DNA of 64,000 bases from Saxidomus purpurata (Eukaryota > Mollusca > Bivalvia > Venerida > Veneridae): the NCBI GenBank assembly GCA_022818135.1, contig JAFMSR010000017.1:40332455-40396454 (forward strand), in the 5' to 3' direction. Shown piece by piece: positions 7,979-62,207 of the stretch; positions within the stretch are counted from its first letter, which is position 1; every line of letters starts with the position of its first letter. The notes under the pieces were generated by a model that saw nothing but the letters and a program-made list of their open reading frames with translations, was not told the origin of the DNA and did no database searches. Both the position numbers and the translations under genes were made by a program.

Positions 7979-8245
7979 GTAGTTTAACGCTAATAGATTT
8001 TGTTGATTTTATAATCGCTTTATTTCAGTTCATTTTATTGTTTATAAGTAATTCACCTGTTCTTATAATGTGGATATGGAACACGCAATTCGCTCCTATA
8101 ATCTCAAGTTTCCTACAATAACAACGCAAAATACAAATTAGATTTAATAGCTGTTACATGAACATCTTGTAGCGCATTTATTGCTCTTCTTGTTTATTGC
8201 TAATATTTCAATCTTGCTAACAACATGTTGCAGATAAAGACGGCG

Positions 8246-8812
8246 TACCAAAATTGTTTAATAGTCATGATAGTGTCTGATCAGTAGTGTGCAAAAATTG
8301 CTCAATAGTCATGATAGTGTCCGATCAGCATGGTGTTCAAAAATTGTTCAATAGTCATGACAGTGTCCGATCAGTGGTGTTCAAAAATTGCTCAATAGTC
8401 ATGATAGTGTCCGATTAGTGGTGTACAAAAATTGCTCAATAGTCATAATAGTGTCCGATCAGTGGTGTACAAAAATTGCTCAATAGTCATAATAGTGTCC
8501 GATCAGTGGTGTACAAAAATTGCTCAATAGTCATGATAGTGTCCGATCAGTGGTGTTCAAAAATTGCTCAATAGTCATGATAGTGTCCGATCAGTGGTGT
8601 TCAAAAAATGCTCAATAGTCATGATAGTGTCTAATTAGTGGTGTACAAAAATTGCTCAATAGTCATGATAGTGTCCGATCAGTGGTGTACAAAATGCTAA
8701 ATTGACATGATAGTGTCCGATCAGTGGTGTACAAAAATTGCTCAAAAGTCATAATAGTGTCCGATCAGTGGTGCACAAAAATTGCTCAATAGTCATGATA
8801 GTGTCCGATCAG
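8246..8812. repeat. 44-bp satellite, about 13 copies
   Basis: Head-to-tail repeats with the core TAGTCATGATAGTGTCCGAT followed by CAGTGGTGTACAAAAATTGC. Most units differ by one to four substitutions; one near 8690 is shortened by a few bases. There are no unique spacers between units, so this is a minisatellite and not a CRISPR-like array. A small open frame (8782-8967 +) starts in the last unit and is not considered real. Confidence 0.95.
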
Positions 8813-9389
8813 CCGTATGTAAATATGTTTTTCTTGAAACCTCCGAAAATAAGACAAGAACATTAACTACTGACCGTATTCATAAGTTATCATGTTTCGA
8901 ACATTTTGGATTTGTTAAAAAGGCGAAATTTACTCAGCACTCAACAATAAAAGCGTATTTGATATAGAAGACATTAAAACCGTAAGATATTTTGTATGTT
9001 TTGTTATAATATATATAATTTCTAAATTCTTAAAAGTATCGCTACAATGTTGGCGGTAGAATAAAAGAATAACACAGTTGTCCTTAATCATGTACCAGAA
9101 GGGTACCAAGCGTATATTAAGAGACATTTGTTTTTGAGAAAAAAATGCTCACCTGATTGAATATATTTACACTAGAATATTTCAGTCATCTCAGCTGGCA
9201 TAATTGTCGACCACGGACTATGCATGTGCAAATCCACAACAGAGTCTGTGTTGTGGTAAATTTGTAAACAAAATTTCCTTTACATATATTGCCGATCAGA
9301 TATTTGTTTATCATTTTATTGTCATAAACATGTACATCTGCAAGCAACATTTAATCATGGTGATATGATTGTACAATGCATAGTTTACT
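8813..9389. other. Gene-free stretch
   Basis: AT-rich DNA between the 44-bp satellite and the first copy of the 9.4/13.1-kb duplication. Nothing recognisable. Confidence 0.4.
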
Positions 9390-14060: not shown

Positions 14061-14320
14061 ACAAAACAGAAGCTGCGTCCTTTTAACGAAAGCTCAATCC
14101 TATAACTTCATTTTGTCTTTTGACGTTTGATTGTAATAAGGGTAAATATTGTCAATACAAACCATACTTTCACCGGATCATATATTACGAAGATTTGGTT
14201 TGAAGTTCAGATTTTTGCGAATGATAAAACCTTTTCATTTTTACTTCAAATATACATATTCGCCAGTTTTTCCTTCCAAGCAATTGTGGCGTACCAGCAT
14301 TATACAAATAACATTTTGTC

Positions 14321-15054
14321 TGAAAACCGTAACTGATGGAAGAAAGGCTACCGAAAACCTGGAAAACCGTATTTGGTTGAAGGCAGGCTGTCGAAAACCT
14401 TGAAAACCGTTACTGATGGAAGGCTGGCTGCCGAAAACCTTAAAAACCGTAATTGGTGGAAGGCAGGCTGCCGAAAACTTTGAAAACCGTAATTGGTGGA
14501 AGGCAGGCTGCCGAAAAGCTTGAAACCCGTAATTGGTGGAAGGCAGGCTGCCGAAAACTATGAAACCCGTAATTGGTGGAAGGCAGGCTGCCAAAACTTT
14601 GAAAACCGTAATTGGTGGAAGGCAGGCTGCCGAAAACCTTGAAAACCGTAATTGATGGAAGGCAGGCTGCCAAAAACCTTGAAACCCGTAATTGGTGGAA
14701 GGCAGGCTGCCAAAAACCTTGAAACCCGTAATTGGTGGAAGGCAGGCTGCCGAAAACTGTGAAACCCGTAATTGGTGGAAGGCAGGCTGCCAAAACTTTG
14801 AAAACCGTTATTGGTGGAAGGCAGGCTGCCAAAACTTTGAAAACCGTTATTGGTGGAAGGCAGCTGCCGAAAACCTTGAAAACTGTAATTGACGGAAGGC
14901 AGGCTGCCAAAACTTTGAAAACCGTGATTGGTGGAAGGCAGGCTGCAAAAACTTTGAAAAACGTTATTGATGGAAGACAGGCTGCCGAAAACCTTAAAAA
15001 CCGTAATTGTTCGGGCCGGTACCGAGAACTTAAAAAGGCATGCTGCAAAACCTT
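14321..15054. repeat. 40-bp satellite, about 17-18 copies
   Basis: Head-to-tail units around GTAATTGGTGGAAGGCAGGC and TGCCGAAAACCTTGAAAACC. Each carries the near-palindrome GGCAGGCTGCC. Unit length alternates between 40 and 39 bases because of a recurrent one-base loss in the CCGAAAA segment. Long frames exist on both strands (for example 14440-15048 minus). They arise because the unit has no stop codons; a 40-bp period rotates through all three frames, so a conserved repeat protein is unlikely. Units at both edges are the most diverged, as in arrays growing from the centre. Confidence 0.95.
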
Positions 15055-36773: not shown

Positions 36774-37168
36774 ACGGTGGGGAATCTCATGATCAAAATA
36801 ATCTCTAAACAAAGGCACATCTATGAACAATGTTAGAAAATTATGAGAGCCGTTAAGCTGTACATTAAAACTAAAGCCCATCTTATGACAACATAAAAGT
36901 ATCTAAGAGCTACACAGGTATCAATCACAGTCACTTCTGATTATGCTGAACACTTCAAAAATAAATTATGTCAGTTTCTTGAAGTGTTCAGCACAGTGTG
37001 AGGACGGTGACTTTGATTGAGACCTGTGTAGTTCTTGAATACTTTTATGTTGCCATAAGATAGACTATATTTTACATTTACAGCTAAACGAATTTCATTA
37101 TTTTTTGACATTCTTCAGAGATCTACTTTTGTTTAGAGATTATTCTGATCACGTGATTCCCCCATGGT
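36774..37168. mobile_element. Foldback MITE with arms of about 190 bp, copy 1
   Basis: Almost the whole element is an inverted repeat: ATAATCTCTAAACAAA on the left pairs with TTTGTTTAGAGATTAT on the right, and CTGAACACTTCAA near the centre with TTGAAGTGTTCAGCA. The loop is about 20 bases (ATAAATTATGTCAGT). A second full-length copy is at 52556-52946. It sits inside segmental copy C and is missing from copy A, so it is a later insertion. RNA from either strand would form a long hairpin. Confidence 0.85.
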
Positions 37169-43313: not shown

Positions 43314-43368
43314 GTTAACGAAAGACCCCTTTCATCAGAGTGAGATATAACATCTGTGCCTTTGGACC

Positions 43369-45144
43369 ATGGCGGCGTCAATAATTACGTCAAACGTGAC
43401 GTCAGACTTGAAACCACGTGATAATTCGACACAAAGCAACGTCATTCATAGTGGACCAATCGTTGACGAAATTAGACGGGAACTTATGGAAATTTATATT
43501 TACCCATTTATATTTGTGATATTCTATATGGTTATCGGATTTATAGGAAATTCAATTGTGATCTATATATTTACGGTGAAATGGAAACTTACAAAAACAA
43601 CCATATTCATTCTCACACTAGCGGGCGTGGATCTGATGTCGTGTGTGATAAATATGCCCACAGAAGCCGCAATTTTGTGGAACCCAATGGATTTTGACTA
43701 TGATATCCTGTGCAAGATATCTCGATATACAACGTTCATAGCGTCTGCATCTTCGTCTTTTGTGTTGATCGCCATCTCTATTGACAGATATCTTATGGTA
43801 TGCCGACCATTTCTCGGCAGAGAATTAGGTGTACGATATGCTAAGAAGACATGTCTAATAGCCGTTCTCTTGGGCCTCGTTACAACATGGCCGTCACTTA
43901 TTTTTTACGGAACCTTTACATATCATATTGAGAAAACAGACAGCGAGACGGGAGGAAATGTGACCATTGAAACCAAAACATGTTTAATATCGAATTTCTA
44001 CGTAGAAAACTACAAACTACCAGCGGGATTTTATTTTTTCCTCTTCGGCGGACACGTTATAATGTTTGTGATATTAACCATGGTTTATTTATTAATAGGG
44101 CGCAGTCTTTTCATGTCCACCAGCACGGAGGTTTCTAATGAGAAGCGACACAGCCTGAAATATTTTGGTATTAGCATGATGTCCGCCTTTACTGGCACGG
44201 TGCCAAATAGTCCGGCAGATAACCGTGACCGAATGAGCTGGGGCAGCAGAAGTTCACGCGCTGTCTCGCTCGAAAATATACACCGCATTGACCAAAGCCC
44301 AGTAAACTATTTCCCAAAATCACAAGCTAGAAAAAGTAATGAAACCACAGTTAGTATTGTGTTAAATGACCTCGAAAAAGGAGATCAAGGAGAACCAAAA
44401 CATATATACACAAAAAAGAAAGATACAGTCGAAAAAAGATCGAATGACAGTTTGATGAAAGATAACATAGCGAATACAAAAAATAGTCCGTCGAACATTG
44501 ATAATATTTGTAGTGTCTCAGACAACGAAAACGATGATAAGTTAGAAATTACACGCTACAACCTTTGTGTTCAACAAGCGGTGTCAGATGATAGCGCGAG
44601 TGATACATCGTTTAACTCGCCTGAGAAGAAGCCCAAAACTAAATATTTGCATTTGAATATAAATAGAAAAGATAAAAACAAGATAACAAATGGTCGTTTG
44701 TCGTCAGCTTCGACCCCAAGTACAAATTGCTTAACACCTATGACTCCTATGACACCTATGACCCCAGATAGTGTAAGGGGGATTCTTTATCGAAGCCAAA
44801 GTGTAGAAAGTAGAGCGAGATTGAACCGCATTATCTCGGACGAACTAAGACATTCGGAGGTGAAGGAATTTAGTTTGCGTAGGAATACATTAATTATGCG
44901 GATGGTTACAATAGCTTTTGTCGTGAGTTTTCTCCCTTACTTAGTAATAGTGACAATGCGGTACTCAAACACGGATATACCTACAAAACTTAGTAAAGCA
45001 GAACAAATCTTGTATCATGTGTTTTTGAGGACATACTTTATAAATTCAATGATTAATCCTTTTATATATGGGTTCATGAACATGGAATTTCGAGCAAAAA
45101 TAAAAGAACTGTTTTGCAAATTTTGCACACGGCACAATGTCTGA
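43369..45144 (+). CDS. Class A (rhodopsin-like) G-protein-coupled receptor, intronless coding region
   Basis: 591 residues, a seven-helix plasma-membrane receptor. Seen: N-terminus with glycosylation sequons N9 and N19; TM1 about 46-70 (GN, N61); TM2 78-103 with D88; C115 and C205 for the conserved disulfide; DRY at 139-141; W174 in TM4; TM5 about 219-243; a very long third intracellular loop (about 245-505) rich in Ser, Asn and Lys with a TPM triplet repeat at 457-466; TM6 508-530 with S-F-L-P in place of the usual C-W-x-P; TM7 with NPFIY at 563-567; helix 8 with possible palmitoylation cysteines C583 and C586. The start is chosen because ACCATGG is a strong Kozak context and an in-frame TAA lies at 43348-43350. 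The ligand is unknown. It resembles the expanded peptide/amine-type orphan receptors of bivalves, but no close orthologue can be named from sequence alone. Confidence 0.95.
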   Translation: MAASIITSNVTSDLKPRDNSTQSNVIHSGPIVDEIRRELMEIYIYPFIFVIFYMVIGFIGNSIVIYIFTVKWKLTKTTIFILTLAGVDLMSCVINMPTEAAILWNPMDFDYDILCKISRYTTFIASASSSFVLIAISIDRYLMVCRPFLGRELGVRYAKKTCLIAVLLGLVTTWPSLIFYGTFTYHIEKTDSETGGNVTIETKTCLISNFYVENYKLPAGFYFFLFGGHVIMFVILTMVYLLIGRSLFMSTSTEVSNEKRHSLKYFGISMMSAFTGTVPNSPADNRDRMSWGSRSSRAVSLENIHRIDQSPVNYFPKSQARKSNETTVSIVLNDLEKGDQGEPKHIYTKKKDTVEKRSNDSLMKDNIANTKNSPSNIDNICSVSDNENDDKLEITRYNLCVQQAVSDDSASDTSFNSPEKKPKTKYLHLNINRKDKNKITNGRLSSASTPSTNCLTPMTPMTPMTPDSVRGILYRSQSVESRARLNRIISDELRHSEVKEFSLRRNTLIMRMVTIAFVVSFLPYLVIVTMRYSNTDIPTKLSKAEQILYHVFLRTYFINSMINPFIYGFMNMEFRAKIKELFCKFCTRHNV

Positions 45145-49245: not shown

Positions 49246-50815
49246 ACTCAAAAAAATAATTAAAGGGTCAGAAAATTAAGAGCATTTCCTTTCTTGGGAA
49301 TAACGTGTAGGTATAAAAATCTTGTATCAACATTGAATTAGGTATCTATACAAAGCTTTACAAAAGGTAATCATGAATTTCAATAGAATTATGAGTTGTT
49401 TTCACTAGGGGTTAAAATTTCATGTTTTTGATAGGATTTGAGCAATTTATGTCATTTGTGTTCAACAATCCCCTACATAAGATTGGTTGCCAAATCATTT
49501 TATAGAGAGGTTTTTTACTGAGAATATCGTTTGCTCTAAGTTATCAGTTAAATTCACTATGCCACGACGCCATATGCGCCAAAATGAGAGACAGAGGGCG
49601 CTGGGGATGCTGTTAGGGGGCTGCATCCAACGTAATGTGGCCCAGCAGTTGAACGTCACCCAGAGCGTGATTGGTCGGTTGTGGCAGTTGTACCTTGATA
49701 CTGGGGATGTTCTTAGGCGACCAGGTCAAGGGCGTCCACGCGTTACTGACGCTGCCCAGGACCGTCAGTTGACATTAGCGGCGCGACGTCGCCGGTTTGA
49801 CTCTGCTGTTACACTTGTCAGAGACTTTGAACGCACACATGGTTACCGGATTTCTGTGCAAACTGTGAGGAACAGACTCAATGCTTCTGGTTTGAATGCT
49901 CGGAGACCAGCTGTAAGGACCCCATTGACCCCTGATCACCGTAGACATCGACTGGAGTTTGCCAGACAGCACGTGCATATTGGACGCCAAAGTTTAAACA
50001 GCATTCTCTTCACGGATGAATCAAAGTTCAATTTAGATTTTCATGATGGACGCAGAAGAGTGTGGAGAACAAAAAATGAGCGTTTCCGTGACTGCTGTGT
50101 GGCAGAGCATGACATGTTCAGGGGTGGGTCGGTCCTGGTATGGGCCGGCTTTTCTTACGACGGTCGTACGGACCTTTACGTCATCAGGAACGGTACATTG
50201 AATGGTTTACGCTACAGAGACGAGATACTGGCCGACTTTGTAAGGCCGTACGCTGGAGCAGTTGGACCGGACTTCATGCTAATGGATGACAACGCTAGAT
50301 TCCACCGTGCCAGGGTGGTCAATGAGTACCTACAACGTGAGGGAATCGAACGCATGGAGTGGCCAGCCAGATCTCCCGACTTAAACCCAACAGAACATGC
50401 ATGGGACAACATGCAACGCCGAATATCAGGCCGAAACAATCAACCACAGACAGTGAATGAGCTGACCGACGCCCTTGTGGAGGAGTGGACAAGGATTCTC
50501 CGCGCGAACACGAGAAAGCTGATCGCGATGCCAAGCATTGATTGAAGCTAGAGGAGGACATACACGGTACTAAGCTGTGAATTTGTGATGTTACATTGAC
50601 AATTTAAAAGTGCTATACCCCACCCACTATGTGCGAAACGGTGGAATTTTGTGACTAACAGTAATTAGCAGTAACATTTGACATTATTTTTCTCTGTATT
50701 GATAAAGTAGTCAATGAATTTGGAAGACTATACATCTGTGATATTATTAAATACATTTATTTTGGAACATTTTCTATTGTCCTCAATATTTGACCCTTTA
50801 GTTATTTTTTTGAGT
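49246..50815 (+). mobile_element. Tc1-like DNA transposon, nearly full length
   Basis: 25-bp terminal inverted repeats (49246-49270 and 50791-50815), beginning ACTCAAAAAAATAA and ending AAAGGGTCA, with one mismatch. Total size is 1570 bp with one central transposase frame, the usual Tc1 layout. The left end sits in a TA repeat and TA occurs two bases beyond the right end, consistent with TA target use, although the exact border register is uncertain. The near-identical TIRs imply a fairly recent insertion. Confidence 0.93.
49559..50545 (+). CDS. Tc1-like transposase (DD34E), C-terminally frameshifted
   Basis: A cut-and-paste transposase that binds the element's own TIRs in the nucleus. 328 residues from the ATG at 49559; an upstream in-frame ATG at 49487 adds 24 residues, but the chosen start gives the family's usual basic N-terminus (MPRR). 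Seen: two helix-turn-helix regions (about 8-50 and 65-120) joined by a GRPR motif (58-61); catalytic D153 (FTDESKF), D244 (MDDNARFH) and E279 (SPDLNPTEHAWD), with exactly 34 residues between the second D and E. Oddity: the frame ends ...IAMPSID, yet the next frame at 50529-50570 reads CQALIEARGGHTRY followed by TAA, a C-terminal ending typical of this family. A small indel just before 50529 has therefore replaced the last residues. The catalytic core is intact; activity is uncertain. Confidence 0.95.
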   Translation: MPRRHMRQNERQRALGMLLGGCIQRNVAQQLNVTQSVIGRLWQLYLDTGDVLRRPGQGRPRVTDAAQDRQLTLAARRRRFDSAVTLVRDFERTHGYRISVQTVRNRLNASGLNARRPAVRTPLTPDHRRHRLEFARQHVHIGRQSLNSILFTDESKFNLDFHDGRRRVWRTKNERFRDCCVAEHDMFRGGSVLVWAGFSYDGRTDLYVIRNGTLNGLRYRDEILADFVRPYAGAVGPDFMLMDDNARFHRARVVNEYLQREGIERMEWPARSPDLNPTEHAWDNMQRRISGRNNQPQTVNELTDALVEEWTRILRANTRKLIAMPSID

Positions 50816-52555: not shown

Positions 52556-52946
52556 CGTTGACCGTGGTTTTGTTTTCTTACAAAATTAACTTAAAAGTAC
52601 ATCTATGAAAAATGTTAGAAAATTATGAAAGCCGTTTAGTTGTAAATTAAAAATATAGCCTATCTTATGGTATCATAAAAGTATTATAGAACTACACAGG
52701 TCTCAAGCACAGTCACCTTCTAATTGTGTTGAACACTTTAATAATAAATTATGTCAGTTTCTCGAAGTGTTCAGCACAATTGGAAGGTGACTATGATTAA
52801 GACCTTTGTAGTTCTATAATACTTTTTTGTTGCCATGAGATAGGCTACATTTCACATTTACAGCTAAACGGCTTTCATTATGTTCTAACTTTTTTCTGAG
52901 ATCTACTTTTGTTTAGAGATTATTTTGATAACGTGAATCTCCACTG
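52556..52946. mobile_element. Foldback MITE, copy 2
   Basis: Same structure as 36774-37168: ATCATAAAAGTATTATAGAACTAC pairs with the right arm's GTAGTTCTATAATACTTTT, and ATAAATTATGTCAGTTTCT is the centre. The outer left 30 bases are more decayed than the right end. The flanks differ from copy 1, confirming mobility. Confidence 0.85.
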
Positions 52947-53310
52947 TGAGATATAGACCTTATTCAAAAGTGTTTTTGTAAACAAATAAAATAGTCCATA
53001 CAGGTGATCGATAGGACCGCCCACACCTACGATCAGCCTCATAGAATATTGAACAAACTTTCTGAAGCAAATGAAAGAGGCAATATGAGAGTATATAATA
53101 AAGATCAATATTACAGTTTTTACGACCTGTGAAAAGACGATATCGACCGAGGACAAAGCTAACTTAACATCACCCTCTACAGGTCCGAAAAAATAAAAGA
53201 AACATAAAAAAGATATATACGACATTTAATGAACTGTTAGGCATACGATAAACTCCCCTTAAAAAAACCTTATACATTATTGTTTCAAATAAATTGTGTT
53301 AGCTTATACA

Positions 53311-53316
53311 CTAAAC
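53311..53316. other. Left target-site duplication of the 8.9-kb element
   Basis: CTAAAC directly before the left TIR; the same six bases follow the right TIR at 62202-62207. Confidence 0.8.
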
Positions 53317-53432
53317 TACGGAAGCCCATTAGTGCCATTTTGTCTTATGCGTTTTGTGTTATGACTAATGACTTATGTGTCATGACTTATATGTTATGTG
53401 TTAAGAGTTATGTCTTATGACTTATGTATTAC
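53317..53432 (+). repeat. Left terminal inverted repeat
   Basis: Outer 74 bases perfect, inner 40 bases similar (GTTAAGAGTTATGTCTTATG). It is composed of irregular 12-17-base units around GACTTATGTG. Confidence 0.9.
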
Positions 53433-53676
53433 TTCTAAGACACAGCAGTCTCATAGCAAAAACAATGGCGGGTGAAATCTCAATTACTCTTCAGTTACAA
53501 AGGGAACGAAAATGAAGACGTTTTATTAATTGGTGTAAGTAGTAAATACCTTGATTGTGTAAGCTTGATAACTTTATGTATGGTAGCCATATAGTTTGAT
53601 ATATTTCTTTATAATTATGCAAGTGAGCAATAGAACGTTTGATTTTGTGAACACAATGTCACACTTCATGTTATAT

Positions 53677-53747
53677 TGGCTTCGTTGGTAAAGCCGTAAG
53701 TCTGCTAATCCAGGGGTCGTTTGTTTGATTCCTAGCTCTGTCATATA
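53677..53747 (+). mobile_element. tRNA-derived SINE head fragment
   Basis: TTGGCTTCGTTGGTAAAGCC is box A-like, GTCTGCTAATCCAGGGG looks like a tRNA anticodon arm and TTTGTTTGATTCCTAG is a decayed box B. The ends do not pair as an acceptor stem. It lies inside the 8.9-kb element and so inserted into it or was captured by it. Confidence 0.6.
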
Positions 53748-54213
53748 ACTTTGTTATGGAGTAATTTCTAGTGACTACAGCCATTCTACCGATAGTAAAT
53801 ACACGGTTACACATGCAATAAGCAGACTTTGGGTACGTTCATTCATACATTCCACACACCACATATCGACATAGGCTACATCGTACAACGCAACAAATTG
53901 TCAAAAACATAGGAACATACCATTTTACATATATTATGTCGTCTTCATATATGTAAACGTGTCGTGATATTTTGCTAGAATGATGACTATATGATTTCGA
54001 ATCAATTATAAAATTAGCATGACGAAACAGGTTTGAAATCAGAAAACACACAAACATGATTGCACTTAAACGACGGGGTAATTTTGTAACAATCATGTAG
54101 TTGGTTGTATATATTTTCAGATCCATTTGATAAACATGATCGCAGTGTATAGCATGTGGCTGTGTCTGTGGATACACCAGGTTTACCCTGTTACAGGAGT
54201 GACACCTTCTAAT

Positions 54214-54902
54214 ATACCTGAAACATTGACAGCAGGAAGTACACGGCTAGATTTAGTGAAACAATATTTTTACTGTGGGTTTACATATCCTGAAATTGTT
54301 TTGCTGTTGTTTGTGATAAATAACATTAAAATATAGTTGCGACAGCTTAACAGAGTTACAACTTACGACGTCGAACTAGGTACACACCAGATCACATTGT
54401 TATTACATGTAATTATATTTCCGAAGAAATTGAGACAAGCGGTCAGTGCATTGGTTACCGTTCCATGTGGAAACGTTTGGTAAATGAACATAGGTTAAGA
54501 GTTCCGAGAAATAAAGTTCTTTCTATTATGAAAACTATAGACCCTGATGGAATTACTTTTCGGAAGGCCCACCGGCTGAAAAGACGCAAGTACAGAACAA
54601 AGGGGCCGAATTATGTTTGGCATGTAGACGGATACGATAAACTGAAGCCTTATGGCTTTTGTGTACACGGTGCTATTAACGGTTACAGCCGAAGGATACT
54701 TTGGTTAGAAGTTGGTGAAAGTAACAACAACCATGCACTGAAGACGCTTGGGGTTGCTCCGCGAATTCTTCGGTGTGACAAAGGAACGGAAAACTCAACT
54801 CTGTCTTTACTCCAACCGTTCTTCCGATACTTTGTTCCCGAAGTATTTGGTGGTCACAATTTTGGAAAGACTGTCGATCAACAAGATGTTGAGGTATGCT
54901 GA
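54214..54902 (+). pseudogene. rve-type integrase/transposase, decayed
   Basis: An integrase-core protein of a family found in many bivalve and fish genomes; it would act on transposon ends by DDE chemistry. Seen: an N-terminal helical region (LVKQYFYCGFTYPEI) from about 54250, a stop (TAG) at 54334 followed by LRQLNRV, a frame change near 54365, then an open frame to 54902 with GYRSMWKRL, an R-K rich linker, GPNYVWHVDGYDKLKPYG (catalytic D at 54627), NGYSRRILWLEV, ILRCDKGTEN (second D at 54777) and a probable third acidic residue E at 54891. The interval between NGYSRR... and the second D looks about 10 residues short. The C-terminal domain after 54902 is lost or unrecognisable. TTTTCAG at 54114-54120 may be a 3' splice site. 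Clearly inactive as it stands. Confidence 0.8.
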
Positions 54903-55906
54903 GAAATGTATGGCTTACACAGGACTGTATGCAGTCAAGAATTTCAAGATTTGGCAAAATTACTAAAACCTGACCTCCACATTCCCGTTACTGCACAAGG
55001 GGCTCTAGAGTTATATACATGGAAATGCTGGAACTCATTGACGAAATATTGGAATGATTTTTCTTATCTCATAGCGTCACATGAATTTTTGATAATTATT
55101 CTCCACCAGTGTTTCACTGTGAAATTTTGGTCTGTTACAAGGAAAAGTGCAGTAGTGTATATAAACGGAATATTGTGTTAGCATGTTCATCCGTGTGTTT
55201 GTAGGGGTTCTAGAGAGGGGGTTTCTTTTGGTTTTTACTAAAACCTGTACCGTACACCGTACAAATCTTCGTGGCGGAACCGTATTTAATCTATGTTTAA
55301 AAATTATGTAAATAAAAAATAAGAAAATGTTTATCATTTTACATTTTAAAAATATCTTTGGTAAGCCTAGCTTATGTTTCGCTAATCAAAACGATGTAAA
55401 AAAAATATGAATGGTGACGCGAAATACCGGGAGTGAACTCAGTTTTGTTAATGAACAATGATAAATGTCGCATATTTTCCCCGATATTGAATGTTGTTTT
55501 ACATGTTGTTTATATCAAAACCTAGACTCCAATTGTTGAAAACGTTACAGAATACTTCTTACTGATACCACATATCATTTTAAGCAGAAATATCGATGAA
55601 TTCCATCAGCCTCGAATGATTTCATATGTTATTTCCATACGTTCCTGGTATCGGGTCAGTTAGTCTTCACTGATGAGTCTCCTATAACACTTACGAAATT
55701 TATCAAGGATTTACAAAATATTTTTTAAACATTTGAAATAAATATTCTGTTATTTTTATTGTACATAATAATATCTAAAACTGTTTTCTAAAAATAAATT
55801 GAATACGGTCGTATCAATCTGTAGTTATCAGTACATTACGAAGATTTACACGGTGTACGGTACGGGTATTAGGAATAACCGTTTCTTTTCGCCAGTCTGC
55901 TGATCC

Positions 55907-56230
55907 CTATGGGAAATTGCTTTTGCCTAGAATGTACAGGTGCGCTGGTCCTTCATTTTTGACTTTAAACGTGTCAGCTGCTTGCCAGTTGCTGATTTTA
56001 AACGGAAAACAATCAGTTCTTCCAAGCTCCCAATCAAATCGCCATTTCAGTAGTAGGAATTTCTTGTAATTTGTAACTAAAATCGCATAATGACAAGGGA
56101 AGCCTGTACGCGAATGTAAATGTTGAAGAAAGTCATGCAACCCATTTGGCAAAACAAAAAAGGAAGTGGCTATTCGGACGTGTAGTGAAATAACCCGCAG
56201 TCTGCTTTTCGTACGGCAGTTTTGTATCAC
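55907..56230 (-). CDS. Unidentified 107-codon ORF inside the 8.9-kb element
   Basis: An open frame with balanced composition and coding-like codons, especially in its second half (a K-W-R-F-D-W-E-L stretch, then F-K-I-S-N-W-Q). It has no domain that I recognise. Its first 20 codons lie in one arm of an inverted repeat (56163-56238 with 56681-56760); the other arm would encode a similar N-C-R-x-x-S stretch in the opposite direction, interrupted by stops. It could be an exon of a minus-strand gene of the element rather than a complete protein. Confidence 0.35.
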   Translation of the reverse strand: MIQNCRTKSRLRVISLHVRIATSFFVLPNGLHDFLQHLHSRTGFPCHYAILVTNYKKFLLLKWRFDWELGRTDCFPFKISNWQAADTFKVKNEGPAHLYILGKSNFP

Positions 56231-56760
56231 ATAGCATATATATTTCTGATGTGATTAAACTAATATATTTTACGAGAAACACGTGTATAAATGTGCTCTG
56301 CTTTTTTCAGTTTTATTTTGCAGAATGCGTATTTTTGTACAATAAAATTTATTTAGAATGAGTACATTAATTAAGATTTGGACATACGAGAATTCTTACA
56401 AATACGTTATGAAGATGTGCTCTGCTTTTTTCGCTTTTTTTTTCTTCTTTTTTGCGCTCATGAAATGTATACATGTATTTACATAAAATCGTAATATATG
56501 AAACCAAATTAGCAAAACTCTCACCTGATTATATGTTTATTTTCAATAGTTAATCGATTAAAAACCAGATCAACCATTTGATTTTTTTATAAGTGCTATC
56601 CGGTCTTTCTATACATTGGGAAATGTAAGAAACTGGTTGAAAAATTATCAACTTAATCATTTCAAAAATATACATAATTGATGTTATGTGATACAAAACT
56701 GCCGTGCGAATAGCAAACTGTCGGTTATTTAACTATTCGTAGTGGAGAGTAGCCACTTCA
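56163..56760. repeat. Inverted repeat, arms about 78 bp, spacing 440 bp
   Basis: AGTGGCTATTCGGACGTG... CGGCAGTTTTGTATCACATA at 56163-56238 matches the reverse complement of 56681-56760 with roughly 80 percent agreement by eye. It may be a nested foldback element or an inverted exon duplication. Confidence 0.65.
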
Positions 56761-57702
56761 AAACAAAAATGTACATGCATGACATTCAATAACGATAATT
56801 CGTACACGCTAACAGTGCGTATATTAATTTATGCGTCTACCATTCGCTGGACTTATAATTTATGCGCTCAGTGCACATTTCTTCGACATTTCTGAAAGCA
56901 TATACGCTGAGCGAATAAATCTTTTGAACCAATATAAGATTTGTGCGTCTACCGAACTGCAAAAACTGGAAACATGGTAGATTATAGACAAAATACTACA
57001 TGATAGGAAAGCATGCCGAGAGTTGCACAACTTTAGAATGATACTTTGGCTAGTCCCTTGCGGAACATGTTACGATGAGAATCGACCAGTGGCGAGGATA
57101 TATATTTTGGACTGTCGAGAAAACAATAGTATTTTGGGTAGTACTTAGGGACTCCGAACCGTAAAGCAAGTTGATATACAGGCAGCAATCAACCCCAGCT
57201 ATTGGTTCTCCACAGTTTTGTTTATCCGTTTGAAAAAAGAACAAGAAGTCATGTATATCAATCATTTAATATTTAACATATCCTCCTGGCCAATGGTAAG
57301 AACAAAGGAGTAGAATTTCTCAGCACTGCCATGCTAATAAGACATCTTTGTTTTAAACTAACAATCATGACACAAACAAGAGCTGCCAGAGGAACAGTGC
57401 GCTCAACTATTCTCAGATCATGATAGTAATACAAATGCTTGTCCATAAATACAAAGTCCAAAAGGGGGGATAATTCAGTCAAAATGCTTGAAAGAGTTAC
57501 GGATTATACCCATTTCTCTCTGTGTCAGGATCATATACACGTGTATCTTGAAAGTAATCATCAATAACATAACAGATGAGGGAATCATTGGAACAGGAAA
57601 GCTCCCTTCACTTTGGGGCTTTCCACTCAGCAGCTCTTCACTTAGGGACTTTTTTGAAGTTCTTAAGTACAAATAATATTGTGAAGAAAACACACCAATA
57701 CT

Positions 57703-60700
57703 TTAAAAAAAATCTTGAAGAGAACATTCTTCTCCGTTACTACCAGTGAATTTTTCAATGACTTCTCCATTATTTGTGGATAGTTTAACTTCCATGTCTG
57801 ATAATTTGCCCATATCATTCTTGCCGTCCGGAAAAAATCTTGTTGCATAATTTGTAACTGTTTGAACTTTCTGTTCTTCTTCCCTTTTGAATTCATACAT
57901 TCGTGTTCCTCCTCTCCGAGCTGTCGCTTGCCTGAAATTTCCTCTAGTTTGATGGAGCCATCCAATCTGTAGTTTAAATGTTGGGTGTGTCCCAGTGCCC
58001 CGCTGTTTCTGAAACAATAATGTAAATTTACCAAACGTCATGTAGAGGAAATATGACCATGTTGTTTGAGAGTGCCCCTCCAATCTGAAAATGCTTCCTA
58101 CGTGCATGATGGTGGCTTTCACAAATGAACATATTGATTGAGGAAAAGTCAATTTACTCAAAATTATTATAATTTATTCTGATTATTATATGCTGAAAAG
58201 GGGGATCCAGTCGCAACCAAAACCCACTCATCCCCTGTTACATTTAAAAAAAATTCTGTCTGACGTCTTATGTATTATGAATTATGTCTTATGACCTATG
58301 TCCTATGTTTTATGTCTTATGACCTAAAGATTATGGATTATGTCTTATGGATTATGCATTCTGTCTTCTATATTATGTCTTATGATCTCTGTTTAAATAA
58401 TATCTAAACAGAAATGCAGATATATATGTTGACAGTCTGATTGCTTGCTCATCTACTATGCTATCTCCTCCTTGATGGATTTTGACAATATTCAGTAACT
58501 GAGTCCGCTGGGTCAAAATGATGACATGCAGTGTCATATTCTTGTGATTTTTTACCCTAGGGTCAAAGGTAAAATCAAGTTAAAGGTCAACATTACTTCA
58601 TTTCTATTTACATACCAGTTCATGGTGCTGGACGATGTGTATCACGGACGATGTGTACCTGAGACGATGTGTAACACTTTACGGAGACGATACACCACTT
58701 AGAGTTATTTCAACTACATTTGTACATAGCTAAGGAAGTAGCTTGTTGCTATGGAAGTTAGTGGTTGCTAAGGAAATAAATGTGGTTCAAATGCTTAGTG
58801 TTATCAAAGGTACTTACAAGTTTGGTTCAAACAGAACAATAAACAATACAAATCTACCGCCAGACCTTCAGTCAGCTGGCTCAGTCGACGTCTTCAAGAC
58901 TAGACTAGCCACCTACTATATCTAACTTCACTCTTAGTTTCTTTTATCCTTCACTGTACATACTTTCACTTTTATCTATTTACTTCCTTTCTTGCGCAAC
59001 CCCCTGACAGAACATTCAATTTGTTGAATTTGGCCAGTAATAGTAGAAGGTAGAAGGGTAAAAATTATAGGGTTGCTAAGACGGTAGGTGGTTGCTTAGG
59101 ACGTCACTGGTTGCTATGGAAGTCTATGTGATTCCAAAGGGTAAGTGTTATCCAAAGGTACTTAAAAATAGTTTGGTTGCAATACAGCTATTCAAGCTAC
59201 ATGGTTGCTAAGGAAGTCAGTGGTTATTATGAAATTATATACATTCTCAAGTAAAGAAAAAGATATAGAAACTAAGTCAAGTGCCTCGTAGTGTAAGATA
59301 AGAAGATTTTTAAAGGTTCTACCTATATCACTATATGTAAAACTAAGTGGGTCTTTTATGATTTGAAACTATAAAACTATGTGCCTTTTAGTTTAAGACA
59401 ATGCGTTTTTTAAAGTTTTTTCTCTACAACTCTATAGATGTAAAACTAAGTTAGCCCTTGGGTAGGGTCAATTTTTACCAGAGGGCCATGATTTCCACTA
59501 GATGATCCTACATGCCAAATATCTAAGCTCAGTGTTATGAGGTTTTAGACAAGAAGATTTTTAAACGTTTAGCCAATATGACACTTCATTTAAAACTAAT
59601 CAAGCCCCAGGGTGGGGCTAATATGACCCTAGATGTCAGGATTTGAACAAACTTGGTAGAGGTCTACTAGGTAATGCTGCATACCAAATATGTAGGCTTT
59701 GGGCCTTGCAGTTTCGGACGAGAAGATTTTTGAAAGTTTTCCTTATATATACTTACATTTGTATAAATGTAAAACTAAGTTTCCCCTGGGTTGGACCGAA
59801 TTTGACCCCAGGGGCATGATTTGAACTTCTCTTGGTAGTAGAGGATCTTAAGATGATGCAACATGCTAAATATGAATTTCAAAGCTCTGGGTCATGTAGT
59901 TTCATTCAATAACATTTATGAAGGATTTCCTCATATAACGCTATGTAAAACTAAGGGCTTCTGGGGCGGGGTCAATTTTGATGCCAGGGGCATAATTTTT
60001 ACAATCTTGGTAATGGACCTCCAGATCATGCCACATTGCCAAATGTCAAAGCTTTAGGCCAAGTGGTTTCACATAATATTTTTGAAATTTGAATTTTAAA
60101 CCCCCGGGTTCAGTATTGGAACAAACTTGGTATAGGTCCACTTAGTCTCACTAAATCGCCTCCGAAGCCTGACCCATTTTATAATCTGACTTTTTATAGT
60201 TGTCAAGCTTCTTCTAGCAAAATTAATTAGGCTAAGGTCCACTCTAACTTTAATACTGCTCAGGTTACTAATATAATCAATTGAATGTTCACTATATTTA
60301 CCTTCTTTGGATTTTCCATATATGTATCCTTTTCCATTGACTTTTGTTTTTTCTTCTTTTGGCCGGCTATGCTGCGAACCAATTCCTGAATACGTTTTCT
60401 TCTACCATCTTCCTGAAGGAGTATTGATTTATATTTTATACAGAATGTTGAATGATAAAGTTTTCACAAATTTATCAATCTGACACTAGTGGCCGATTTA
60501 AATTTGGACCGACAGATTTCGGGCACTGGCCGGACCAGATGACTGTCACATTTTCCCCAATTTCAGTAAGTCTGTCTTCCAAAAATATTGATTAATTACT
60601 TAATTCACTCTGAGGACAAACAATTTTGAAGCAGATCTATATATGTTGTGCTATTTGCATTGTATTTGTAAGACGAAACATTTTGGGTACAAATCAATTC

Positions 60701-62087
60701 AGTTTTTTTTTATCTTCTCCCGAACAGGGCGGTATTTAAAACTTTTGCGTAAGTTTAAACGAAACACTTTTAAATAAGTCAAACTTACAACTATGAGTTG
60801 TTAAATAGACTTAATTCTGGTTTTGTTTATTTTCTTGATGGTTTCTACACCAGAAGAAATGTGTGCTACTAATGGGGGGAGTGTATCTAAGGGAGGTAAT
60901 GTGTTCTTTCACCAAACAGTTGCAGTACGGCGAACAGCTCATTGAAAGTCCGTTATATATTATTTTAATGTAAAATGTCACTTTGTTAGTTTGCTCTTAG
61001 TATGTTTTATCACTGCAATAGCTCAAAACTCTTCAATTTCAGAAACTACACACACTTGGCTATGAAATAAATAGCGGAAAAGCAGGGGGTGATAAGCTTA
61101 TAATTATGACATGATCATGTGACATGGTGTGTCAAGGCACGCGAAACTGTCGCTCTGCATAATTCTTTCATTAGTTTGGCAATTCTTGGCTTATAGTGCA
61201 ATTTTGTTGGACAATTCGATTCTACAAAGTTTCAAGTTGGTGGTGTTTCACAGAAATGGTATAAAACAATCAGGAAATAGTGCAAAGAAAGCACATAGAT
61301 CTATAGTGATGGACAGGCTGTTGTTATTGACAGTAAAAAAAGGCGGCGCTGGTATCTGTACCAATAGTGAAATGGCAGTGGCTAGGATAACGGATCCGTA
61401 ATCTTAGCCTCATAGTCAAGGATTACGGAAATTCCGTATAACAAGACAAGCTGCAGAATTTTTTTCCCGGGGGGGGGGGGGGGTTCCAACACCTAAAATT
61501 CCCTTTTCGAGGAAAATGTATATAAGGAAAATAAAGAAATTGACATATTTTTCAAATTCCAGGGGAGGGGGCGGGGGGGGGGGGGCTCCGGACCCCCTGA
61601 CCCTCCTCTGGATCCGCCCCTGCTAGACAACCCTATCCGGTTATTAAAGTATTGATGTAATTACTGATTTACTTAAAATGACTAAACTCGTTTACTAGTG
61701 ATTGGTGCTTTGCATACCTTGTCACGTATATTATATATATTTTTTATGTTATATATGTATACTCATAAAATCGCAAATTGTGATTTTGAGTTAATAAAGT
61801 TCTGTTCTGAGCTTACAACATTTCAATTTAATTAAAACCTCATTATCTTTTAGTTCTTTGTTTCTTCTTAAATTATCAATGTCCATGAAACATTGGACCC
61901 AGATGAAAGCGAACGATACATGTACTGCAGAGCTTCTAGAATCTGTTTTAAGTTTCATCTCTATATTCAGTAGTTTTCTTTTAATAAACAACGTAAGTCA
62001 AGCTGTTTACATTTCAAGGCTTACCAAACAGTCTTCTTTCTCACTTTCAGATGAAAGTCCACCCTCCGTCACATCAGTATAAGACAT
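57703..62087 (-). CDS. Candidate three-exon gene carried by the 8.9-kb element
   Basis: Proposed exons on the minus strand: 62087-62025 (21 codons, starting MSYTDV, acidic, then donor GTAAGC), 60412-60302 (37 codons, preceded by CTCCTTCAG, followed by GTAAAT) and 58008-57703 (101 codons plus TAA, preceded by TTGTTTCAG). All three junctions are phase 0, giving 159 residues. The protein would have an acidic start, a lysine/arginine-rich middle (GRRKRIQELVRSIAGQKKKK) that could act as a nuclear localisation or DNA-binding segment, and a C-terminal part with a KREEEQKVQTV helix and FFPDGKN. The start codon lies within the inner right TIR, so the TIR would supply the promoter. The family is not recognised. 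Splice sites were judged by eye and exon 2 is short, so the model is provisional; extra small exons are possible. Confidence 0.45.
58262..58390. repeat. Internal TTATG-motif array
   Basis: About 130 bases of irregular TCTTATGACCTATG / GATTATG units, the same word type as in the inner TIRs at both ends. It may be a relic of an earlier terminus or an internal transposase-binding array. Confidence 0.75.
58625..58700. repeat. Short GACGATGTGTA repeat
   Basis: Four irregular copies of GGACGATGTGTA / GAGACGATGTGTA within 70 bases. Confidence 0.7.
58738..59250. repeat. GGTTGCTAAGGAAGT direct repeats around a LINE tail
   Basis: TTGCTATGGAAGT, GTGGTTGCTAAGGAA and AAAGGTACTTA recur on both sides of 58845-59065. 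This indicates a tandemly repeated target into which the LINE tail inserted. Confidence 0.6.
58845..59065 (+). pseudogene. CR1/L2-like LINE 3' end
   Basis: The last residues of a reverse transcriptase ORF (NLPPDLQSAGSVDVFKTRLA then a stop at 58924) follow the pattern N-x-LP-x5-A-x-SV-x2-FK-x2-L that ends many CR1/L2 polyproteins. The 3' UTR contains TTGCGCAACCCCCTGACAGA and ends GGCCAGTAATAGTAGAAGGTAGAAGGG, a simple-repeat tail as expected for L2-like elements. Confidence 0.7.
59330..60160 (+). repeat. Tandem array, units about 110-180 bp, roughly five copies
   Basis: Recurrent order: TGTAAAACTAAG, then CCCTGGG...GGGTCAATTTTGACC, CAGGGGCATGATTTGAACAA, CTTGGTAGAGGTC, ATGCCAAATAT, AAGATTTTTAAAGTTTT. 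Unit starts are near 59336, 59441, 59591, 59768 and 59945, so unit length varies through deletions. It resembles a repeat class widespread in bivalves (recollection). Not coding. Confidence 0.8.
61464..61625. repeat. Poly-G tracts within a GC-rich dispersed repeat end
   Basis: G runs at about 61469-61482 and 61574-61587, separated by AT-rich sequence and followed by CCCCTGACCCTCCTCTGGAT and CCGCCCCTG. The second half reads like a dispersed-repeat terminus. Run lengths are unreliable in sequencing. Confidence 0.7.
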
Positions 62088-62201
62088 AAGACATAACTCT
62101 TAACACATAAGTAATTACACATAAAACATAAGTCATGACACATAAGTCATTAGTCATAACACAAAACGCATAAGACAAAATGGCACTAATGGGCTTCCGT
62201 A
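62082..62201 (-). repeat. Right terminal inverted repeat
   Basis: Reverse complement of the left TIR; the outer 74 bases (62128-62201) are identical. The inner end contains ATGTCTTATACTGATGTGAC on the minus strand, where the candidate minus-strand gene starts. Confidence 0.9.
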
Positions 62202-62207
62202 CTAAAC
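62202..62207. other. Right target-site duplication of the 8.9-kb element
   Basis: CTAAAC, identical to 53311-53316. Confidence 0.8.

Follow-up and report, generated by a model that had tools for sequence, protein, structure and literature searches.

The segment at positions 53317-62201 of the window (the whole 64-kb stretch of DNA that was analysed) is interpreted, from its sequence, as one insertion of a non-autonomous DNA transposon of the IS3EU superfamily, with a probability of about 0.88. The transposon proper spans 8,885 bp, and its assignment to the IS3EU type derives from the 6-bp target-site duplication, the TA..TA and TAYGG-type termini and the remnant of an IS3-type transposase, the same features that support the IS3EU-like group proposed in an earlier note on this DNA.

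The limits of the insertion are sharply drawn. The duplication CTAAAC, read directly from the sequence and unstranded, occupies positions 53311-53316 on the left and 62202-62207 on the right. Immediately inside lie the left TIR (53317-53425, plus strand) and the right TIR (62079-62201, minus strand), whose outer portions, 53317-53390 and 62128-62201, are equal at 74/74 bases when one is read as the reverse complement. The gapped alignment of the arms extends over 109 bp on the left and 123 bp on the right, with identity at 108/109 aligned bases and two gaps (5 + 9 = 14 bases), both within the array of 7-bp TTATGxx units that fills the inner TIR; the subterminal array on the left covers 53341-53431 and falls largely inside the TIR. 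The 74-bp pair is the longest exact inverted match of the window (the runner-up measures 48 bp), and sequences simulated in 20 first-order Markov runs contained exact inverted matches of at most 20 bp. Moreover, the chance that random position pairs in the window share a 6-mer flank is 0.0006 (200,000 draws), so that the joint match of TIRs and 6-bp duplication is far beyond chance. The 13-mer GGAAGCCCATTAG occurs, within the window, at both element ends only. The earlier note had described perfect 74-bp outer TIRs flanked by CTAAAC on both sides and had read them as the mark of a single insertion event; the 74/74 and 6/6 identities are confirmed, and the pairing of the TIRs with the 6-bp duplication bears out the single event. 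Such transposon families commonly include short non-autonomous copies, and two separate inverted MITEs could in principle supply the TIRs with no 8.9-kb unit between them, but this is very improbable, given that CTAAAC abuts both outer ends, as a single insertion predicts, that an IS3-type transposase remnant lies between the ends, and that each end is present once in the window. Further units of the same kind as those of the TIR arrays make up a third, internal TTATGxx array (58257-58384, plus strand), which is not accompanied by the TACGGAAGCCC end, and TTATGTCTTATG is found at six places in the window, all of them inside the element.

The length of the duplication narrows the choice of superfamily. 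PiggyBac elements duplicate TTAA, Tc1-mariner elements TA and hAT elements 8 bp, and all three are ruled out by the 6-bp CTAAAC, as the earlier note had argued. The termini read TACGG...CCGTA, with TA at both outer ends and in a form that also fits TAYGG..CCRTA, and the interior contains the remnant of an IS3-like DDD/E transposase, since the frame at 54351-54902 (plus strand) matches Pfam rva_4 (PF24764), which we take to be the IS3EU transposase domain, with an E value of 1.3e-13 (51.6 bits, the cut-off being 26). HTH_21 and rve match the same frame below their cut-offs, and the NCBIfam matches to IS3 (E 6.9e-5) and IS481 (E 0.004) are also below cut-off. These features can be set against published descriptions: in the portion of PMC10045372 drawn on here, the termini of complete IS3EU families are always TA..TA and their duplications usually 6 bp long, while the corresponding portion of PMC12730594 gives TAYGG..CCRTA ends, TIRs longer than 30 bp and 6-bp duplications for the TET-carrying IS3EU elements of rust fungi. 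IS3EU is counted as one of about 20 superfamilies in the part of PMC9587614 consulted.

The transposase remnant is carried on the plus strand and is heavily damaged. Its N-terminal part (54154-54357), delineated by tblastn of the relative P0003 and by shorter matches of P0006, P0012 and P0016, lies in a frame that differs from that of the core and contains an in-frame stop at 54334-54336 (NNIKI*LRQL). The core (54351-54899) comprises the HTH_21-like region, below cut-off, and the rva_4 integrase domain; it keeps the first two catalytic D motifs and, compared with relatives, has gained two residues and has lost nine that follow SNNN. The C-terminal part (54813-55016), placed by alignment of P0011 residues 242-309 and P0031 residues 230-297, lies beyond a large in-frame deletion and is interrupted by an in-frame stop at 54900-54902. 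This deletion, from about FFRY to FVPE, removes the block with NQRIEAWW of the relatives, which both P0011 and P0031 span. Overall, the lesions, mapped by alignment with six relatives from the 120 listed, amount to two stops, one frame change and two deletions, one of which takes the block with the catalytic Glu; none of four motif patterns for this residue was found in any of the six frames of the element. A catalytically incomplete transposase makes the copy at most a non-autonomous IS3EU member, and a working transposase would not be expected from 53317-62201. The view that the internal integrase had decayed, already put forward in the earlier note, matches the stops, frame change and deletions found.

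Relatives of this transposase are numerous. The protein search returned 370 of them at E <= 0.001 out of 383 candidates, the two top-scoring ones being 69% and 74% identical. Few of the 120 matches listed bear organism names, and these include the bivalves Ruditapes, Dreissena and Argopecten, the corals and relatives Acropora, Montipora and Paramuricea, the hemichordate Saccoglossus and the nemertean Lineus, together with a single record attributed to a lucinid symbiont. All three catalytic motifs are present in 30 of the 120, with the spacing D-58-D-40-E in 28 of these 30. A profile that combined the window frame with 16 relatives out of 18 (P0029 and P0104 omitted) gave 46 pattern matches in viral contigs and 31 in genome contigs, none of which was confirmed, and a PDB search with the transposase profile yielded no match at 0.001. 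The TIR pattern was absent from the genome contigs searched; its match on the viral contig L001 (2,668 of 38,073 bases read) is dismissed as chance, because it falls inside a 418-aa open frame in the bacterial code and no inverted partner is listed for it.

The 8,885 bp overstate the element's own length, because part of the 8.9 kb is made up of nested insertions and not of cargo. A MITE-like element of 651 bp (55230-55880, unstranded) has 43-bp arms that are 86% complementary and lies between two identical copies of a 9-bp duplication, GTTTCTTTT (55221-55229 and 55881-55889); going by the length of the duplication, we presume it to be Mutator-like. A second MITE-like element with long inverted arms, also unstranded, lies at about 56163-56759, its exact boundary and duplication being uncertain, and carries CAAAACAAAAA near both ends. 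Farther to the right, the frame at 58734-58922 ends in LPPDLQSAGSVDVFKTRLATYYI. We take this frame to resemble the C-terminus of a LINE reverse transcriptase, and it is presumably the 3' end of a nested LINE, although Pfam returned nothing on it; near 61.62 kb there is what we suppose to be a possible hAT-like end.

Other repeats and open frames populate the window outside the transposon. A pair of related palindromic elements, each measuring roughly 360-380 bp, lies at 36779-37162 and 52593-52949, the latter ending about 370 bp to the left of the transposon, and tandem arrays occur at 8242-8900 (44-bp units) and 14274-15018 (units of about 40 bp). An uninterrupted Tc1/mariner-type transposase frame of 354 codons, with Tc3-type HTH and DDE_3 domains, is found at 49481-50542, and a 597-codon open frame at 43351-45141 has a rhodopsin-type 7TM domain (E 3.1e-31). 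Between about 46.45 and 46.95 kb the bases are unknown and appear as X in the translations.

The state of the interior and that of the ends point to different ages, and the interior, looking older than the ends, suggests that this copy was probably already defective at its last move and was mobilised in trans by an intact relative. Specifically, another copy would have supplied an intact transposase, and this enzyme would have bound the TIRs, and perhaps also the subterminal TTATGxx arrays, excised the element and joined it to target ends staggered by 6 bp, the repair of which would have left CTAAAC on both flanks. We lean moderately towards this trans-mobilisation step, and thereby to a late move, on account of the single substitution in 109 arm bases as against five disabling lesions within roughly 1 kb of transposase sequence and at least two nested elements. 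One nested element has arms that differ from each other (43 bp, 86%), and from these, which perhaps were never identical, we infer that the nested elements pre-date the last move. With respect to this step only, an autonomous IS3EU copy might instead have inserted with identical TIRs and decayed in place, a course that we consider possible but unlikely. For the arm divergence of 1/109 the exact 95% interval is 0.02-5%, and a divergence of up to about 5% would leave time for some lesions; moreover, the retention of all three catalytic motifs in 30 of the 120 listed relatives is in keeping with this course. However, the arms differ by one substitution and 14 gapped bases, whereas roughly 1 kb of transposase has two deletions, two stops and a frame change, and the interior has received two or more nested insertions. 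Gene conversion between the arms, or fast decay after an autonomous insertion, would also account for the low TIR divergence, and the word recent, used for this insertion in the earlier note, holds only as the bound given by the arm divergence. Mobilisation in trans, the reading we favour, is likened to an inference made from a pedigree for the fungal element Styx: in the portion of PMC10853768 consulted, the authors connect a new insertion with a parental copy whose integrase was non-functional, and infer that degenerate copies move.

On the minus strand, three phase-compatible exons may compose a second gene running leftward from the right TIR, which we put forward as a hypothesis. Candidate exon 1 (62025-62087) starts with an ATG at 62087 in the array of the right TIR and has 21 codons and the donor TTG|GTAAGC; candidate exon 2 (60302-60412) has 37 codons, a CAG acceptor and the donor AAG|GTAAAT; candidate exon 3 (57706-58008) has 101 codons and the acceptor TTTCAG|AAACAG and ends at the in-frame TAA at 57703-57705. 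Both candidate introns are of phase 0 at each end, and the exons may resemble gene models in fish and invertebrates. The homology searches, in which single-exon queries represent exon 3 and exon 2 entered only when joined to it, yielded no homologue: the 156-aa frame containing exon 3 drew 10 protein candidates, none at E <= 0.01, exon 3 in a longer read-through context, which admits longer relatives, drew 19, none at E <= 1, and of two pattern matches of exon 3 in the viral contigs neither was confirmed. No Pfam or NCBIfam model matched the candidate exons searched above its curated cut-off, the weak matches being FH2 (E 0.14) and PRK14108 (E 0.095). In the PDB, the joined peptide of exons 2 and 3 matched catalases at E 0.7-2 and WD-40 proteins at E values down to 9.8e-32, the latter being rejected as a repeat artefact because each hit comes from a repeat-like stretch of about 37 residues summed across many repeats. 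The fold predicted for exon 3 plus 18 codons past the stop had a mean pLDDT of 46.5 and was uninformative.

Three-base periodicity counts against the second gene, as the candidate exons are not separable by it from random segments: the fraction of random window segments at least as periodic was 0.11 for exon 3 and 0.78 for exon 2 (taken as 60304-60411, which trims its ends by one or two bases each), compared with 0.02 for the transposase core, all fractions being slightly low since some random segments in the run of N gave no value. Among the other minus-strand frames, the long one at 53842-54246 shows no three-base periodicity. The frame at 55907-56254 looked coding by eye, but no Pfam family matched it, its part 55910-56176 had no PDB match and its part 55910-56155 showed no periodicity (0.66). 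Of the several coding-like regions mentioned in the earlier note, the decayed transposase stands and the minus-strand exon set lacks statistical support, while 53842-54246 and part of 55910-56254 lack periodicity. It is also quite unlikely that the interior includes host sequence captured as the cargo of a Pack-type element, as phase-compatible candidate exons for which no transposon homologue was found might suggest: a host-gene homologue was not found either, candidate exon 1 begins inside the TIR, which is better suited to a gene of the element, and the interior consists partly of nested repeats. A broader proposal, which we regard as doubtful, is that animal IS3EU elements carry a spliced second gene of an undescribed family, opposite to the transposase and with its ATG in the right-TIR array. 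The TIR, its array and the start of the gene would then make up a single module, and the fungal alpha-kinase genes would be the positional counterpart of this second gene. This possible accessory gene could be checked across animal genomes.

The element is a fresh example of an already described superfamily and a fairly ordinary find, which leaves the picture of IS3EU unchanged. Its value is that of a well-delimited representative of a minor superfamily, probably in an invertebrate genome, with well-kept ends and a ruined interior. The literature searches on IS3EU, worded in other terms, returned no paper on a second gene in an animal IS3EU element; a search combining alpha-kinase, DNA transposon and transposase returned PMC12730594 only, and one combining DNA transposon, integrase, HECT domain and bivalve returned none. 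The suggestion in the earlier note that large gene-carrying elements are undescribed for IS3EU does not hold, as fungal cases are published in the portions of PMC10853768 and PMC12730594 consulted. The first of these describes Styx of Zymoseptoria as IS3EU-like, with about 52% of copies measuring 7,927 bp and four coding sequences. By this description, and not by protein comparison, Styx resembles the present element in its large size, its 6-bp duplications and the inferred movement of degenerate copies, whereas it is fungal and has a 36-bp TIR. The rust-fungus elements, as far as the cited part of PMC12730594 describes them, share the TAYGG..CCRTA ends, the TIRs longer than 30 bp and the 6-bp duplication, and their transposase and alpha-kinase genes have opposite orientations, as would the transposase and the candidate second gene here; no Pfam family, and hence no TET or alpha-kinase domain, matched above cut-off in candidate exon 3, in the joined exons 2 and 3 or in the minus-strand frames of 55200-57752. 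In the oyster Crassostrea gigas, two satellite repeats bear the label DNA/IS3EU in the part of PMC8268682 consulted. GingerRoot, described from clubmoss and compared by description only, shares the 6-bp duplication, the mostly TA..TA termini and a related transposase, according to the cited portion of PMC10045372. Lastly, the IS3EU superfamily of Repbase itself, as characterised there, has the TA..TA termini, 6-bp duplication and IS3-like transposase seen here, and the present copy differs from its described members in being broken and swollen by nested elements.
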